A model generated the notes under the pieces. The model saw nothing but the letters and a program-made list of their open reading frames with translations. It had not been told where the DNA came from and made no database searches. Both the position numbers and the translations under genes were made by a program. DNA of 64,000 bases from Hirudinaria manillensis (Eukaryota > Annelida > Clitellata > Hirudinida > Hirudinidae), in NCBI GenBank assembly GCA_034509925.1, contig CM067531.1, forward strand, positions 10,696,319-10,760,318, read 5' to 3'. Shown in pieces: positions 3,267 to 31,452 of this stretch. How positions within the stretch are numbered: position 1 is the stretch's first letter; every line of letters starts with the position of its first letter.

Positions 3267-6200
3267 TTTCTCGGCCAAAAAAATCATCCAACAGCAAACG
3301 CGATCATCAAACACCTCAACTAACATCCACTGTCCCCCATCCGGGCCCGAGATCACCCCGGGACATACAACCGCATTCCCCAGCGCCAACAACACCGCGC
3401 TATAAACAAGCGACATCAACCATAATCAATCACTATAGTCCAATTCGCCGGCGCCAACGTTTATGAGTTCTGCGCTTATGGAATTTCCACATAAGGTAGG
3501 TGTCCAGCAAAACCGATGTTGCCAGGTACATCATGCCGTTTCTGGACAGACCGATGCCCCGCCATGACAAGTAAGATCTGGAGGATATTACACCTCTGAA
3601 GTTGCATACAAAGGCGGTTACTAAGATCTTCGGAGAGAGAGCACCCCCAGGGTTATTGTTAGACATCCAGATGTGGATGTCTTTGGAGTTATATTTCCCT
3701 GTCTTGGATGAGTAGACCTCGTCCAGTGAGGCGGTATCAGAGACAATGGTGACGTCGCATACGATTGAATCGTCCTTACTCCACGCGACTAGGTCAGGGA
3801 CTCTGATGCCTTCCTCAACTGGTATCCTCGGCTCGATTTTGGTGAAGTACCCTTTCTCGGCCAACTTCGTTTCCAGCCGATGGACGAGGTTGTTGTGCCT
3901 CTCTCGTCTCGATACATCCATTCCTGGACAAACCTGGAAAATGTGATCCAGGCTCTCGGTGACTCTGCAACCGGCGTCACACTTGGTGTTTACCTCTGGA
4001 TGATATCTGGAAACCCGGAGATTGCATGGGAGGACGCCTGCTCTGACCTTTAAGCACTTTAAGTAGTCACTCGGGAACAATCTTGAACGCCCATCCGCGA
4101 TCCATTCACTGATACCGACACCCTGGAAAAAGGACTGGAGTCCAAATCCGTCTACCGAGCTGTAAAGGCTCTCGAGAGTCTCTTCCTTAAGTCGTTTTTT
4201 GGCTGACGACTCCGAATTTAATTGCCCGAACTTCCTGTGTTCTCCAAGGACGATGCTGTTGTCCTTTAGAGTGTCGAGCAAGAATTCGTCTTCATTGCTT
4301 TTCGAGCGAGCCATCATAGATCTCATTCTGCTGGTTCTGATGAGTGGAACCCACTTTCTGAGCTGCAGTAGTCCCAATCCACCAAACTTCAGCCCCGCAT
4401 GGAAGAAGGCGGTCGGCGTGTCTTTTGGGAGGCGCAGCCATTGCCTGACGGCGGATCTTACTTTCGTGTCTGCAGCCTTTAGAGATTTCAAAGAGATTTT
4501 ATTGAAGGTAAGATAGTGCACGAGGCTTGGAATAAGGTTCGATCTTAGGGTGTAGAGTTTTTGATTTGGCTTTAAAGGAGCTGTAGATATTGCATGCAAG
4601 GATTTATGCATTCTGTCGCCTAGTGACGCGTATTTCATTTTTGGGCCAATGTCAATTCCAAGATATCGGTAGGTGTCGAGAATGTTCATTGCCTTGATTG
4701 GCAGCTGGCTGACACTGAGGTAAGAATCCGGGTCAACAATCCAAGGACTGTTTTTCTTTTGCACTTTCGCTCTCAGTGAAGAACATTTTTGGGCATTCAT
4801 AATTAGTCCAACTTTTGCCAGAGATTCCTCGACTTGTTTCAACAACATCGTCATTCCAATATCAGTAGAGGATAGCAGGATCAAATCATCTGCGAACGCC
4901 AAATAATTGCATTTGACTGATGAACTAACATCGCCAGTCACACCGATGGATTGGTCTACCTCTGACATCACCATGTCGATAACCGCGTTGAAAAGTAGAG
5001 GAGACATTGGATCTCCTTGCCTGACTCCTCTATTAACTGGTATGTCCCGACTCAATTTGCCTCCAATCTTCATTTGAACTGAACAATCGCGGTAGGCCTC
5101 TGAAATGTATCTCAACAAAAAAGGAGGAGTTCCCAATCTGTGAGCCGCTCTTACAATGGACTGGTGTGAAACCGAATCGAAGGCTTTGGTCACATCAATG
5201 AACGTGAGATTGAGATTCTGTTTCTGTTCCTTCTTTTTCTGTATGATTGCTTTCACGAGCCATATATTATCCGCCAGGCCATCACCGTGTCTGAAAGCCT
5301 TCTGACGATTTGAGATGGACCAGTGTGCGAGCATTCTCTTGCTCAGCAATCGGTGAAATAAACGACCGATGATTGATCCCACCGTAATTGGTCTAAAATC
5401 CTCTGGCTTCAGACTTTCTTGTTTCTTTGGAATGCAGGTGACAATTCCTTTCCTGAGTGCATCGGGAGGGCATCCAGTAAATAACCAAAGCGTCATGTGA
5501 GTCGCCAGGTCCTCCGGTGCAATTTTGTTCAGATCAATTTTTTTCATGCCGTCAAAGCCGGGGGCAGAATCTTTCAATCCTTTTGCCGCGTGAATGATTT
5601 CATCGACCGTGATTGGAATGTCCATTTCATCGATAGGCTCAATCGTTTCATCCAATGGCCGGGAGTCGGTTTTGGAAGCTTGAGTGAAAACCTTCTCCCA
5701 ATACTCCACCAATGTTTCATCGGAAGGACATACTGCATTTTTCTCGTAGTCACCTTTCATTACCGTTTGTGCCCCAAGACTTGGACTTTTCCTAAACAGC
5801 TGCTGGATCCTCGCATACTGCTCCTTCCGACGCCTCTCTTTTATCGCACGCTTTGAGTTGCGATTGATCCATTTGACGAATTTGCGGCCACTTGTTTGCA
5901 CCTTGTCTTGCTTCTTCGTCTGATGTTTCTTTGCCACTTTTTGAGTCCTCTTCTTTGACACTGTTATGCCAGCAATCCATCTCTGATATTCTATGTTGAT
6001 AAGTGACCTTTTAATCTCGTATACCTCAGTGGAATCAATGAGCGAACTGAACTCTTCATCAGACAATCGAAGAAAAAATCTTCTTCTTTCAATGAATTGC
6101 AAGGGACCAATAATATTTTCTGGGTCTAATGCTTTGCAACAGGCTGAGATACCAGCATCGGCCTTAATGTCTGCCATTATAATATTTGAGAGAAGATGAC

Positions 6201-6482
6201 GATATTGAGGCTTATTTCTAATCACTTTTATAGCATCCACACTGAGGGAGGGAAATTGCTGCTGAAGTGAGAGGTTGATTCTGTTTTTGTGTGTTCCCCC
6301 AAGACTAAGTTCAGCCTTGGCCAGTACATTCCATGACTCAGTGTTATGCAAATTGGGAACAAAACACTCACTATCCTCTGATGGATTAGAATCCTGACAA
6401 AAATTGGTTCCTTGATGCATCAACTCCTCATTTGCTATTGTTGAGTGATTGAGATATTTTTCTAGAGTTGTCTTGTATTTCT
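3228..6482 (-). mobile_element. R4/Dong-like non-LTR retrotransposon, apparently complete, in a TAA/ATT repeat
   Basis: Read on the - strand, the element runs from about 6482 (5' junction) through a 996-codon ORF to a 3' UTR and a poly(A) tail (T run at 3228-3264). It is embedded in an (ATT)n array, and the same 18-bp sequence plus ATT repeats lies on both sides. The single ORF, with a reverse transcriptase and a C-terminal restriction-like endonuclease, places it in the R2/R4/NeSL group. Bombyx Dong, of the R4 clade, is known to insert in TAA repeats, which is why I favour R4/Dong. Clade assignment is inference. It lies in the first intron of the anoctamin gene, in the opposite orientation. 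Confidence 0.85.
3433..6423 (-). CDS. Retrotransposon ORF: reverse transcriptase plus restriction-like endonuclease
   Basis: This uninterrupted 996-codon ORF would nick target DNA and prime reverse transcription of its own RNA (target-primed reverse transcription). The N-terminal third is basic and shows no clear C2H2 finger, unlike R2. The reverse transcriptase follows, with FIDVTKAFDS near residue 405, GVRQGDPMSPLLF near 460 and the catalytic YLAFADDL near 508. Near the C-terminus, at about 814-831, is a C-x3-C-x7-H-x4-C knuckle (CDAGCRVTESLDHIFQVC). It is followed by VPDLVAW (about 873) and CDVTIVSD (about 885), the PD...D core of the restriction-like endonuclease seen in R2/R4-type elements. 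No stop, frameshift or missing core motif is visible, so the copy may be recent. The start could be the first or second Met. Confidence 0.9.
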   Translation of the reverse strand: MMHQGTNFCQDSNPSEDSECFVPNLHNTESWNVLAKAELSLGGTHKNRINLSLQQQFPSLSVDAIKVIRNKPQYRHLLSNIIMADIKADAGISACCKALDPENIIGPLQFIERRRFFLRLSDEEFSSLIDSTEVYEIKRSLINIEYQRWIAGITVSKKRTQKVAKKHQTKKQDKVQTSGRKFVKWINRNSKRAIKERRRKEQYARIQQLFRKSPSLGAQTVMKGDYEKNAVCPSDETLVEYWEKVFTQASKTDSRPLDETIEPIDEMDIPITVDEIIHAAKGLKDSAPGFDGMKKIDLNKIAPEDLATHMTLWLFTGCPPDALRKGIVTCIPKKQESLKPEDFRPITVGSIIGRLFHRLLSKRMLAHWSISNRQKAFRHGDGLADNIWLVKAIIQKKKEQKQNLNLTFIDVTKAFDSVSHQSIVRAAHRLGTPPFLLRYISEAYRDCSVQMKIGGKLSRDIPVNRGVRQGDPMSPLLFNAVIDMVMSEVDQSIGVTGDVSSSVKCNYLAFADDLILLSSTDIGMTMLLKQVEESLAKVGLIMNAQKCSSLRAKVQKKNSPWIVDPDSYLSVSQLPIKAMNILDTYRYLGIDIGPKMKYASLGDRMHKSLHAISTAPLKPNQKLYTLRSNLIPSLVHYLTFNKISLKSLKAADTKVRSAVRQWLRLPKDTPTAFFHAGLKFGGLGLLQLRKWVPLIRTSRMRSMMARSKSNEDEFLLDTLKDNSIVLGEHRKFGQLNSESSAKKRLKEETLESLYSSVDGFGLQSFFQGVGISEWIADGRSRLFPSDYLKCLKVRAGVLPCNLRVSRYHPEVNTKCDAGCRVTESLDHIFQVCPGMDVSRRERHNNLVHRLETKLAEKGYFTKIEPRIPVEEGIRVPDLVAWSKDDSIVCDVTIVSDTASLDEVYSSKTGKYNSKDIHIWMSNNNPGGALSPKILVTAFVCNFRGVISSRSYLSWRGIGLSRNGMMYLATSVLLDTYLMWKFHKRRTHKRWRRRIGL

Positions 6483-27752: not shown

Positions 27753-29019
27753 TGTGCTCGTTGTCATCATTTCAAATCACAAATCATTACGTTCATTGTT
27801 TTATTGTCACCTTTTACGATTGACATACATGTATGTTTGATTAGGATTGCTAGGAATGACGTGCCACTGCCACGCTCGTACTATTGTTCCTGTTCCTATT
27901 GTATCGTGATAACGTACCTCTCAGATGTTGTTTTAAGCTATTCGTTTCACCAAATGTGCAAGGACCAATCTCCTGATGATCAAGCAATTCTTTCTCGAAT
28001 TGAGCCAATTACCTCTAAATGGACTGCGAAGTGGTGCTAAGTGGTGCACTGACCCCTCTCAGAGAAATTTATTTTATTTGTGGACATTAATTTACAATAG
28101 GAGCTGCTAATAATCGCACTCGCTGCATGAGCTACTTTTTTGACGTTTCAATTACGAATCTTGTTTTATTCCAGGCGGGTCTTGTGATATCGTGTTTCGT
28201 GATGCCATCAGCTTTAACGTTTTCCAAATTTAAATTATCATTCCATGATTACTGACCCCAGTTATGAGAATTAGGCAAGGGGAAAGGATTATTTCAGTTG
28301 AACTGACAAATAAACTTCTTCAAAAAGCAACATTTCAGCTATGGCTTAAATGGTCTCCAAAAATTACTCTAATGAAATTTTTCGGATTCCGTTTTGTGGT
28401 TTTCAGCCCGATCATTTGTAATAAGAGTTTTTAGTCGCCGTCAGATCAGTGGCGCACAAAGTGCTTTTGCTGTCCCCTTCTTGTTTATATCACGATCTGG
28501 ATAATATGACTTTCAAAATTTCAGAAAGCCATACAAATTTTTATTTTCCACATTATACCAAAGATATAATCTTAGATAAGGGCTATTAGCCTTAGACTTT
28601 CATCTTATGACAATGCTTCTATACATGCAAGATTCAAGCAAGTATTACGTAGTGCGTGTTCTCTCTCTCTCTCTCTTTCCCAAATACCCGAATAAAACCA
28701 ACCAACCAAATAAATAAATAAATAAATACGTAAGTGAATGAAATAAAGGGAACTAAATAAATAGAATAAAAATTATAATAGCATTAAAGAAACAGGTGCA
28801 GTTTATATTATAAAATAAGAAATTAATTACAGAATTCGTTATAAAGAAGTGTTTTTAGTTTTTTTTTTCCAAAGAACTCGCATGTGTTTTCTGTTTTAAT
28901 ATGGCGAAGAAGTTGATTCACAGCTTTTATGTTTGCTCCAAAGTCGACAATTTCGTGCCTTATTGATCCGAAGAAACAACGGTTTTTTTGATTTATCACT
29001 AATAATAATATAAATATAT
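27753..29019. other. 3' UTR and intergenic sequence after the anoctamin gene
   Basis: The first few hundred bases are the likely 3' UTR. I see no further coding exon. A (CT)n run lies at 28661-28677 and an AAAT run at 28708-28728. Bases 28880-28990 resemble, on the - strand, a short stretch near 34580-34640 (FF.SI.H.IV pattern), possibly an old dispersed repeat. Confidence 0.45.
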
Positions 29020-29315
29020 TGTTGGATCCCTAGATCCAATAAATTGAAGAATAATTAAAATTATATTGCCGATTAATTAATTTAATAATTAATTAAATTT
29101 AGTGGCAATATAATTTGAGAATTAATTGGTGCTATTCAGACTCTTTGGTTATGTACCTTGACAAATGGATTTATCTCGGAAAGTAGAGCGAGAATTAGAG
29201 GAACAGCAGATTTCAAGGCTTAATCAATTAAGCATTTTACATCTTCCAAGGCATCTGAAAAACCTTCAATAAACCTGACCTTCTATAATTAGTTTGAGGA
29301 CCCCGGGTTATTACA
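29020..29315 (+). repeat. Left LTR of the SAP-domain element
   Basis: A 296-bp LTR, starting tgttggatccc and ending gggttattaca. It contains an AT-rich inverted stretch (gattaattaatttaataattaatt). The right copy has the same length. Confidence 0.93.
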
Positions 29316-29396
29316 TTGGTGTCAGGAGTTGGATTTAGAGTTAAAGGGTGTCCAAAAATAACTAAGGTAGAAGCTTATTTAATTGAAAAGTGAAGG

Positions 29397-30833
29397 ATGC
29401 CGAAGTACTTGGATGAATTGTACGTGCCTCGATTGAGACAAGAATTGAGAGATCGTGGCCTGGATTGGAAAGGCACGAAAGCTGAGATACGAGAGCGACT
29501 TGGGACATGGCTGACAGAGAATGGCCATGACCCAGAGGAATACGAATTCGAGAATCCATCCCATAAAAAAATGGAAGAATTTCTTGATTTTATGAAAAAG
29601 TCCGTAGATGAGTTGAGGAGGAGTATTAGGGGCGATTTGAAAAACACAGCGATTCCATGTCAGGATGTCTCGCTGGTTTCGGGTGAAAACTCTACCGAGA
29701 AGAGTCCTGTTGGTTCTTTTGAATTCGAGTCCGAATATAGTAAGTGGCGGAGAAAGTTTGCAGAGAACTCTAGGAGAATTATTAGGGGCGATTTGGAAAA
29801 CACAGCGATTCCATGTCAGGATGTCTCGCTGGTTTCGGGTGAAAACTCTACCGAGAAGAGTCCTGTTGGTTCTTTTGAATTCGAGTCCGAATATAGTAAG
29901 TGGCGGAGAAAGTTTGCAGAGAACTCTAGGAGGACTATTAGGGGCGATTTGGAAAACACAGCGATTCCGCGTCAGGATGCCTCTTTGGTTTCTGGTGGAA
30001 ACTCTACTGAGAAGAGTTCTGATGTTCCAAGTACCGTTTCTGGCAGCATTGGGATGGAGTCATTAGAAGGCACATCCAACCACAGTGCGTGCGTGTCTCC
30101 AGAAACTCTGTGCGTGATGGCAGACTTAGAGAACTCGACATTGGCGCCCATAGAGTTATCAGATCAGGTGGAGTCGTCAGCAGGGCCCAGAGAGCTCACG
30201 GTGGTTTTAGTGGAGCAAGTGAAACTTTCGGAGGAGCCCGTGGGTTTGCCGGTGGATCATGTGGAGTTGTTGGTGCAGCCGGAGGAGTTGCTGATGAGTC
30301 ACGTGGAGTTGCCGGTGGAGCGCACGGATTTGATGGTGGAACAAGTAGAGTCTACAGAACAGCCAATGGATTTCCCGACAGAGTCTGCGAAGTTATTAGT
30401 ACCGCCCGAGGAGTCACCGATGAAGGACATTGAGTTACCAGTGAAGCACACGAAGTTGATGGTGGAACAAGTAGAGTCTACAGAACAGCCCATGGATTTA
30501 CCAGCTGATGTTTTGGCTCCATTGGAAATAGCAGAAGGGAGTGCTCGGGATTTCGGGGGAGTGCCTAGCAAGGAAAATGGAGCAGGTGATCCTGTAGAGA
30601 GTCTGAGATCTGGCGGCATGGTGGAGCAGGAGGTTGAGCATAGAAATGGCGATGTTACGCGACTGAAACTTGCGGGACAGAGAAGCAAAAGGGAGGAAAC
30701 AGAAATCCCAGAAGATGGCAAAGCAAATGGATCTGGGATTTGCAGCCATGAGATTGTTGGAAGTTCGGGACGAACAGATTTAAGGAGGGGGCAGTGTTGG
30801 ATCCCTAGATCCAATAAATTGAAGAATAATTAA
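29397..30833 (+). CDS. SAP-domain protein with 52-residue repeats carried by the LTR element
   Basis: This 478-codon ORF starts 81 bases after the left LTR and runs about 36 bases into the right LTR, where it stops. Residues 1-40 (LYVPRLRQELRDRGLDWKGT..) match the SAP motif, a helix-turn-helix that binds DNA in nuclear proteins. From about residue 77 a 52-residue unit (156 bp, starting at 29625, 29781 and 29937) occurs about two and a half times, containing NTAIPCQDVSLVSG and SKWRRKFAENSRR. The rest is acidic and rich in imperfect E-L-P-V repeats. No CCHC knuckle or other Gag signature is visible. It could be a highly modified Gag or a captured host gene. A structural role in packaging or chromatin targeting is speculation. 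Confidence 0.8.
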   Translation: MPKYLDELYVPRLRQELRDRGLDWKGTKAEIRERLGTWLTENGHDPEEYEFENPSHKKMEEFLDFMKKSVDELRRSIRGDLKNTAIPCQDVSLVSGENSTEKSPVGSFEFESEYSKWRRKFAENSRRIIRGDLENTAIPCQDVSLVSGENSTEKSPVGSFEFESEYSKWRRKFAENSRRTIRGDLENTAIPRQDASLVSGGNSTEKSSDVPSTVSGSIGMESLEGTSNHSACVSPETLCVMADLENSTLAPIELSDQVESSAGPRELTVVLVEQVKLSEEPVGLPVDHVELLVQPEELLMSHVELPVERTDLMVEQVESTEQPMDFPTESAKLLVPPEESPMKDIELPVKHTKLMVEQVESTEQPMDLPADVLAPLEIAEGSARDFGGVPSKENGAGDPVESLRSGGMVEQEVEHRNGDVTRLKLAGQRSKREETEIPEDGKANGSGICSHEIVGSSGRTDLRRGQCWIPRSNKLKNN

Positions 30834-31090
30834 AATTATATTGCCGATTAATTAATTTAATAATTAATTAAATTTAGTGGCAAAATAATTTGAGAATTAA
30901 TTTGTGCTATTCAGACTCTTTGGTTATGTACCTTGACAAATGGATTTATCTCGGAAAGTAGAGCGAGAATTAGAGGAACAGCAGATTTCAAGGCTTAATC
31001 AATTAAGCATTTTACATCTTCCAAGGCATCTGAAAAACCTTCAATAAACCTGACCTTCTATAATTAGTTTGAGGACCCCGGGTTATTACA
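30795..31090 (+). repeat. Right LTR of the SAP-domain element
   Basis: A 296-bp LTR, directly preceded by the polypurine tract and followed by the ATAT target duplication. It supplies the stop codon of the internal ORF. Confidence 0.93.
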
Positions 31091-31452
31091 ATATCAATTT
31101 GGCTGCGGTGTATACAAATATCAATATAAGATGTTATAAAATATTAAAAATAAATTTGTAAAAAGGCGATTTTTGTCTAATTCAGCATCTTCGACACAGG
31201 ATTCGAGACCAGCTACTTATATGGATTTCAAATAGCGATTTTACATCGAGATATTGTGTCATTGCTTACTAAATAATATTTCGATATATATACCAACATT
31301 GCTTTCAAGATGCCAACAAGTTAGTTTTGTGCTCGATGTAGGATCAATAAATTGACTTAAATAGCACTTAGGGTGTGATTCAGTCCATTTAGTCAGAGCC
31401 TTCAATGTATTTGTTAAGAACAAAACTAATCAAAATTGGTTCTTTGCAACAG
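31091..31452. other. Sequence between the LTR element and the unknown 13-exon gene
   Basis: This stretch should hold the missing 5' end of the next gene. Two open stretches are candidate exons: about 31187-31272 (acceptor aattcag, reading IFDTGFETSYLYGFQIA) and an extension of the first assigned exon upstream to about 31365. Neither has an ATG that I trust. Confidence 0.35.

Follow-up and report, generated by a model that had tools for sequence, protein, structure and literature searches.

A young non-autonomous LTR retrotransposon of Hirudinaria manillensis carries a SAP-type Gag N-terminus and is probably mobilised by an autonomous SAP-Gag Ty3/gypsy family

Gag-only partner elements are already known in plants. 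TR-GAG elements possess long terminal repeats (LTRs), lack pol domains, contain one Gag-type open reading frame (ORF) and are presumed to depend on a related autonomous family for their movement (excerpts of PMC6022998 and PMC8704663), and for the wheat elements RLG_Quinta and RLG_Cereba the criteria of a pair were a common primer site, common LTR ends and a common polypurine tract (excerpt of PMC11302176). In Ty1, the partial Gag p22 restricts the element from which it derives (excerpt of PMC4599808). The window analysed here is a stretch of 64,000 nucleotides of the H. manillensis genome (assembly GCA_034509925.1, contig CM067531.1, positions 10,696,319 to 10,760,318), in which a 2,071 bp element is located at positions 29020-31090. 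A first-pass annotation had described it as a non-autonomous LTR retrotransposon whose gag-pol is replaced by a SAP-domain ORF. Searches of the assembly (148.4 Mb, 23 contigs; stretches taken from it are labelled L0xx and contigs C1-C7) indicate that the element is probably a TR-GAG-like, non-autonomous Ty3/gypsy derivative, which is mobilised by a family with a SAP-headed Gag and has kept only the nucleic-acid-binding-type head of that protein.

The element was confirmed as real, complete and young. The two LTRs, the 4-bp duplication, the tRNA-Leu primer site and the polypurine tract reported for it were all found (Table 1), and the LTRs differ at 2 of 296 sites, in agreement with the young age assigned before. 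The primer site TGGTGTCAGGAGTTGGATTT begins one base 3′ of the 5′ LTR. At 19 of 20 bases it fits the CCA-extended 3′ end of a tRNA-Leu(CAG) whose gene ARAGORN called in this genome. The ORF of 478 aa is by far the longest of the element, all others having at most 171 aa, and its 3′ end, stop counted, lies 39 nt inside the 3′ LTR. A SAP domain at residues 7-35 was recognised with a Pfam E-value of 1.6e-6 (score 28.1 bits, cut-off 23.9). The Pfam scan of the ORF gave no zinc knuckle, reverse transcriptase (RT), RNase H or integrase domain, and neither the 52-aa nor the 7-aa repeats, nor most of the C region, matched a family over the cut-off, DUF167 being sub-threshold. The element thus does not have the RT and integrase of its own that define an autonomous Ty3/gypsy element, and with SAP as the sole Pfam family over the cut-off the description as a non-autonomous element with a SAP ORF replacing gag-pol was borne out. 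RNA of positions 29050-29125, which include the LTR palindrome, folds better than 200 of 200 shuffles (z -5.35).

The candidate partner family was recognised by its cis signals. A search for the primer site of the window element behind other LTR ends gave 29 places; at 24 of these the LTR end is AGGTTACAACA, and 19 of the 24 are situated 3.9-4.2 kb upstream of a same-direction integrase zinc-domain match (among 150 scored). With at most 3 mismatches allowed, 177 junctions of this family were counted in the assembly (control 0). Its copy L066 is composed of identical 243-bp LTRs, a 458-aa Gag with SAP (Pfam E-value 5.7e-10) and zinc knuckle (2.9e-6), and a Pol frame, in two pieces of which RVT_1 and the integrase zinc domain were detected by Pfam; the layout of the partner Gag is SAP module, coiled coil and zinc knuckle, followed by Pol. 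All three partner copies that were read (L066, L072 and L073) share the LTR start TGTTGGATCCCT with the window element, and two of the three share the LTR end GACCCCGGGTTA..ACA; in L072 and L073 the LTR ends in GACCCCGGGTTACAACA, compared with GACCCCGGGTTATTACA in the window element. A 44-bp block at the 3′ end of the window element shows 95% identity to a partner fragment in L069. The pol stop of the partner is positioned within this block, right before the polypurine tract, and the window ORF reads the block in a different frame and continues into the LTR. By its LTR ends, primer site and 44-bp 3′ block, the element therefore has the cis signals common with an autonomous family that are expected of a Ty3/gypsy derivative, and because the LTR ends, the primer site and the 3′ end match, mobilisation by this family is the probable route.

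With regard to the primer, the tRNA-Leu 3′ end is matched 75 times on one strand, with a spacing of about 585 bp, in a region of C1 (G000:C1:5586096-5629428), and 801 bases of this region (L071) contain two tRNA-Leu(CAG) and one tRNA-Thr(AGT) on opposite strands. The region is a large array of tandem tRNA genes, from which the primer of these elements is likely derived. A tRNA-Leu 3′-end-like sequence at C7:10350201-10350222 (L070) is the single site with an exact fit to the primer site of the window element; it was rejected as the primer tRNA gene, since no tRNA was called there by ARAGORN.

The homology between the window ORF and the partner Gag is confined to residues 2-74/80, as determined by translated search and profile comparison. 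Over about 75 residues the identity amounts to 48% for L066, 51% for L073 and 56% for L072 (tblastn E-values 5e-17 to 1e-15), and the profile comparison yielded a probability of 98.1% with 58% identity over 67 columns. An alignment of seven family members and the L066 Gag showed 33 invariant positions among the first 51, including the motif HDPxEYEF directly behind SAP. Residues 434-475 resemble the 3′ end of the partner in a different frame and with a stop (47%, E-values 8e-5 / 3e-5), and due to these matches at both ORF ends the element looks like a partner reduced to its two ends. Both repeat types (52-aa and 7-aa) and most of the C region lack a match in the compared partner copies. Behind SAP, the partner Gags L066, L072 and L073 themselves vary in their in-frame coiled-coil repeats. 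Judged by sequence comparison, the window ORF combines a SAP-type Gag N-terminus with a different body, which is repetitive and acidic. Of the two origins that had been considered for it, a new type of Gag is in line with this homology. An autonomous copy showing the ORF to be a Gag N-terminus had been named as a refuting observation; L066, L072 and L073 are such copies, with a Gag whose N-terminus is homologous to the ORF. The other origin, capture of a host SAP gene, is very improbable: the SAP segment does match solved cellular SAP proteins by phmmer (1zrj, E-value 2.1e-4), but the Gag N-terminus of a co-resident Ty3/gypsy family that has the same cis signals is a far better match. Capture was rejected because a homologous module heads this Gag; host genes were not searched separately. 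Among viral contigs, 6 pattern-matched stretches were obtained as possible relatives of the partner Gag, of which 0 were confirmed.

The short family is abundant. LTR-primer-site junctions with at most 3 mismatches occur 523 times in the assembly (reversed-pattern control 0) and polypurine-LTR junctions 474 times (control 0); compared to the junctions of the partner this corresponds to a ratio of roughly 3:1, which is approximate as the pattern lengths differ. In the protein search 89 of 930 candidates were scored, and among the rows listed eight have one stop and the rest none, with intact copies favoured by the ranking according to similarity. Many copies are open, contrary to the possibility that the ORF is always broken. 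LTR pairs were compared in 37 loci, mostly picked for similarity to the window copy, which contain 32 elements with both LTRs whole: 4-bp target duplications flank 29 of the 32 (ATAT in 18), the LTRs are identical in 15, and 28 pairs show 0-3 differing sites. That a family encoding a Gag fragment has more junctions than its partner would also suit interference, in which the ORF product joins the partner Gag via the common N-terminus and blocks or skews the particles by analogy with Ty1 p22, a Gag fragment that inhibits Ty1 (excerpt of PMC4599808). This seems unlikely, as the short element should require an active partner and many of its copies are young.

For the search of an autonomous member with the same LTR, the exact 5′ junctions (100) and 3′ junctions (98) listed on C1-C3 were paired, the two last listed 3′ junctions being omitted as both lie past the end of the 5′ list. 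Among the matches listed, 78 pairs were formed, 77 of which are spaced 1047-1527 bp, and no autonomous member with the same LTR was found among these junctions. A 7770-bp pair was rejected as a long member because its 3′ junction already belonged to a 1095-bp pair with a closer 5′ junction, and L067, L068 and L069 were rejected as autonomous relatives, since they contain diverged or broken relatives of the same short family; the one in L069 is interrupted by the autonomous-family fragment. The proposed search for partner and copy number therefore provided the copies and an autonomous family with matching LTR ends, but, among the junctions listed, none with the same LTR. At G000:C1:9071653-9074893 two alike ORF copies run in the same direction 1747 bp apart, a spacing as expected of a tandem element with a common middle LTR.

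Selection on the ORF was assessed by the ratio of non-synonymous to synonymous change (dN/dS) together with permutations, in which each variable site was moved to a random site of the same base. The first set consisted of 30 open copies picked by protein score or junction and is therefore biased to low dN; 5 of 35 open frames of at least 300 aa were omitted since no start was recognisable. In this set dN/dS was 0.23 for SAP (permutations as low in 22/1000; wide bootstrap interval of 0.07-0.68) and 0.39 for the 7-aa repeats (4/1000); an earlier estimate for the 52-aa repeats was 0.94. The second set consisted of 19 copies selected through their LTR or junction rather than their protein, 4 of 23 having been dropped for indels in SAP; one of them (L063) has a stop and another (L069) spans 142 of 153 bases. 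Here the true frame of SAP gave a dN/dS of 0.366, compared with 1.157 and 0.871 when the frame was shifted (permutations as low in 88/2000; null median 0.71). Six of these copies, analysed apart from the 13 chosen by LTR, gave 0.332 versus 2.016 and 1.175. The values moderately support selection acting on SAP and the 7-aa repeats, and in the other parts little beyond the maintenance of an open frame. An ORF that is open merely through the youth of the copies would account for the few differences within 28 of the 32 LTR pairs, in loci that were mostly selected because they resemble the window copy, and for the permutation result of the set not chosen by protein; it is nevertheless improbable in view of the difference between true and shifted frames and of internal lengths which favour multiples of three. 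Among the 77 pairs listed, 58 lengths are multiples of three, and 21 of 36 when distinct lengths are counted once (p 0.0018), an excess that is partly caused by repeat units of 156 and 21 nt.

Several results weigh against the interpretation as a mobilised derivative with a retained Gag head. The primer site of the window element has one mismatch to tRNA-Leu and that of the partner none (20/20 bases). Five loci chosen by junction (L061-L065) contain six elements, the ORF being intact in 3 and broken in 3, and 22 of the 100 listed 5′ junctions have no exact 3′ junction within 15 kb, which leaves room for a rare longer family member. In the set of 30 copies the mid part (dN/dS 0.93, permutations as low in 598/1000) and the C part (0.89, 545/1000) look neutral, and the 13 LTR-chosen copies alone gave a weaker signal for SAP (0.434 versus 0.918 and 0.589 in the shifted frames). 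The support for selection on SAP is modest: the check for purifying selection that had been proposed revealed a modest excess of silent changes in the SAP codons, with the mid and C parts appearing neutral. The near-neutral mid and C parts, the lengths in multiples of three and an ORF that crosses the polypurine tract into the LTR are also what would be seen if the protein had no function and the open frame were needed by the RNA, for translation or for escape from nonsense-mediated decay. This explanation is not favoured and has little probability, given the low dN/dS in SAP and the 7-aa repeats and the invariant positions shared with the L066 Gag.

Under the preferred interpretation as a derivative mobilised by the SAP-Gag family, the partner would supply in trans the particle-forming part of Gag, the zinc knuckle, the protease, the RT and the integrase, and its proteins would copy and insert the short element. 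The small protein might be an accessory which links the element's own RNA or complementary DNA (cDNA) to the partner's particles or integration complexes; as suggested by its sequence, the SAP head may act on RNA, cDNA or chromatin, or pair with the partner Gag, while the long middle of the ORF would be maintained in frame and mostly free in sequence. A further and rather doubtful version is that an element without a particle-forming Gag uses a putative nucleic-acid- or chromatin-binding SAP head on a stretchable repeat arm in order to draw the particles or complexes of the partner to its own RNA or cDNA, and thereby outnumbers the partner. The flanks of the insertions have a GC content of 24.6% in the first 50 bp and of 32-38% farther out (window 33.2%). 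Targeting of regional AT-rich or matrix-attachment sequences by SAP was rejected, since the AT richness is limited to about 50 bp of the insertion, which argues against targeting at the scale of chromatin domains; the chromatin targeting that had been suggested for a new Gag gained no support.

Table 1. Features of the LTR element in window coordinates
Feature	Position	Strand	Basis or remark
Target-site duplication ATAT, left copy	29016..29019		flank comparison
5′ LTR, 296 bp	29020..29315	+	repeat comparison
Palindrome in 5′ LTR	29058..29116	+	RNA folding z -5.35; second copy 30833-30891
Primer binding site	29317..29336	+	19/20 bases fit tRNA-Leu(CAG)
ORF, 478 aa: SAP-type Gag N-terminus on repetitive body	29397..30833	+	SAP Pfam E-value 1.6e-6
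Codons 1-51: SAP domain (Pfam residues 7-35) and motif HDPEEYEF behind it	29397..29549	+	common to autonomous-family Gag
Three 156-nt (52-aa) repeats	29594..30061	+	copy number varies among elements
21-nt (7-aa) acidic repeats	30218..30477	+	low dN/dS
44-bp block spanning 3′ end, polypurine tract and LTR start	30763..30806	+	95% identity to autonomous-family fragment in L069
Polypurine tract AAGGAGGGGGCAG	30782..30794	+	directly before 3′ LTR
3′ LTR, 296 bp	30795..31090	+	repeat comparison
Target-site duplication ATAT, right copy	31091..31094		flank comparison

Elsewhere in the window, positions 3433-6423 (- strand) are occupied by an open RT ORF of 996 aa (RVT_1 E-value 1.6e-34), which judged by its make-up is probably a non-LTR element; a 776-aa ORF at L064:321-2651 (- strand) looks similar to it.

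In the open-licence full-text literature that was searched, no description of a SAP-domain Gag in an LTR element was found, nor was one of a Gag-only element with the SAP head alone. Among described systems, RLG_Quinta with RLG_Cereba resembles the pair found here in being a non-autonomous LTR element with a Gag ORF plus an extra domain and with cis signals common to a partner in the same genome; the pair criteria nearly hold, one primer-site base and two terminal LTR bases being different. RLG_Quinta is a plant element whose encoded GAG domain is thought to serve particles, whereas in the window element the SAP head alone matches and no zinc knuckle was found (excerpt of PMC11302176). As TR-GAG is defined in the excerpt of PMC6022998, the absence of RT, RNase H and integrase domains applies to the window element, but a recognised Gag domain does not, because SAP is its sole recognised domain; with 2,071 bp and a SAP ORF it also differs from TRIM elements, which are given there as shorter than 2000 bases and without any domain. 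Ty1 p22 and the window ORF are alike as partial Gags, yet p22 is the C-terminal half of Gag and is made from an internal transcript of Ty1 itself (excerpt of PMC4599808). The closest relative is the autonomous SAP-Gag family itself, which has the LTR ends, the primer site, the 3′ end, the SAP module and variable in-frame repeats in common with the window element and differs in having a full Gag that includes a zinc knuckle, and RT and integrase besides; most of the LTR interior and the entire Gag body are unmatched between the two. The pair offers a natural dissection of Gag, i.e. of which piece a non-autonomous element retains once a partner supplies the rest, and allows the function of the SAP head in the partner Gag family to be tested. 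With it, an apparent animal case joins a literature on Gag-only elements which, as far as searched, concerns plants.
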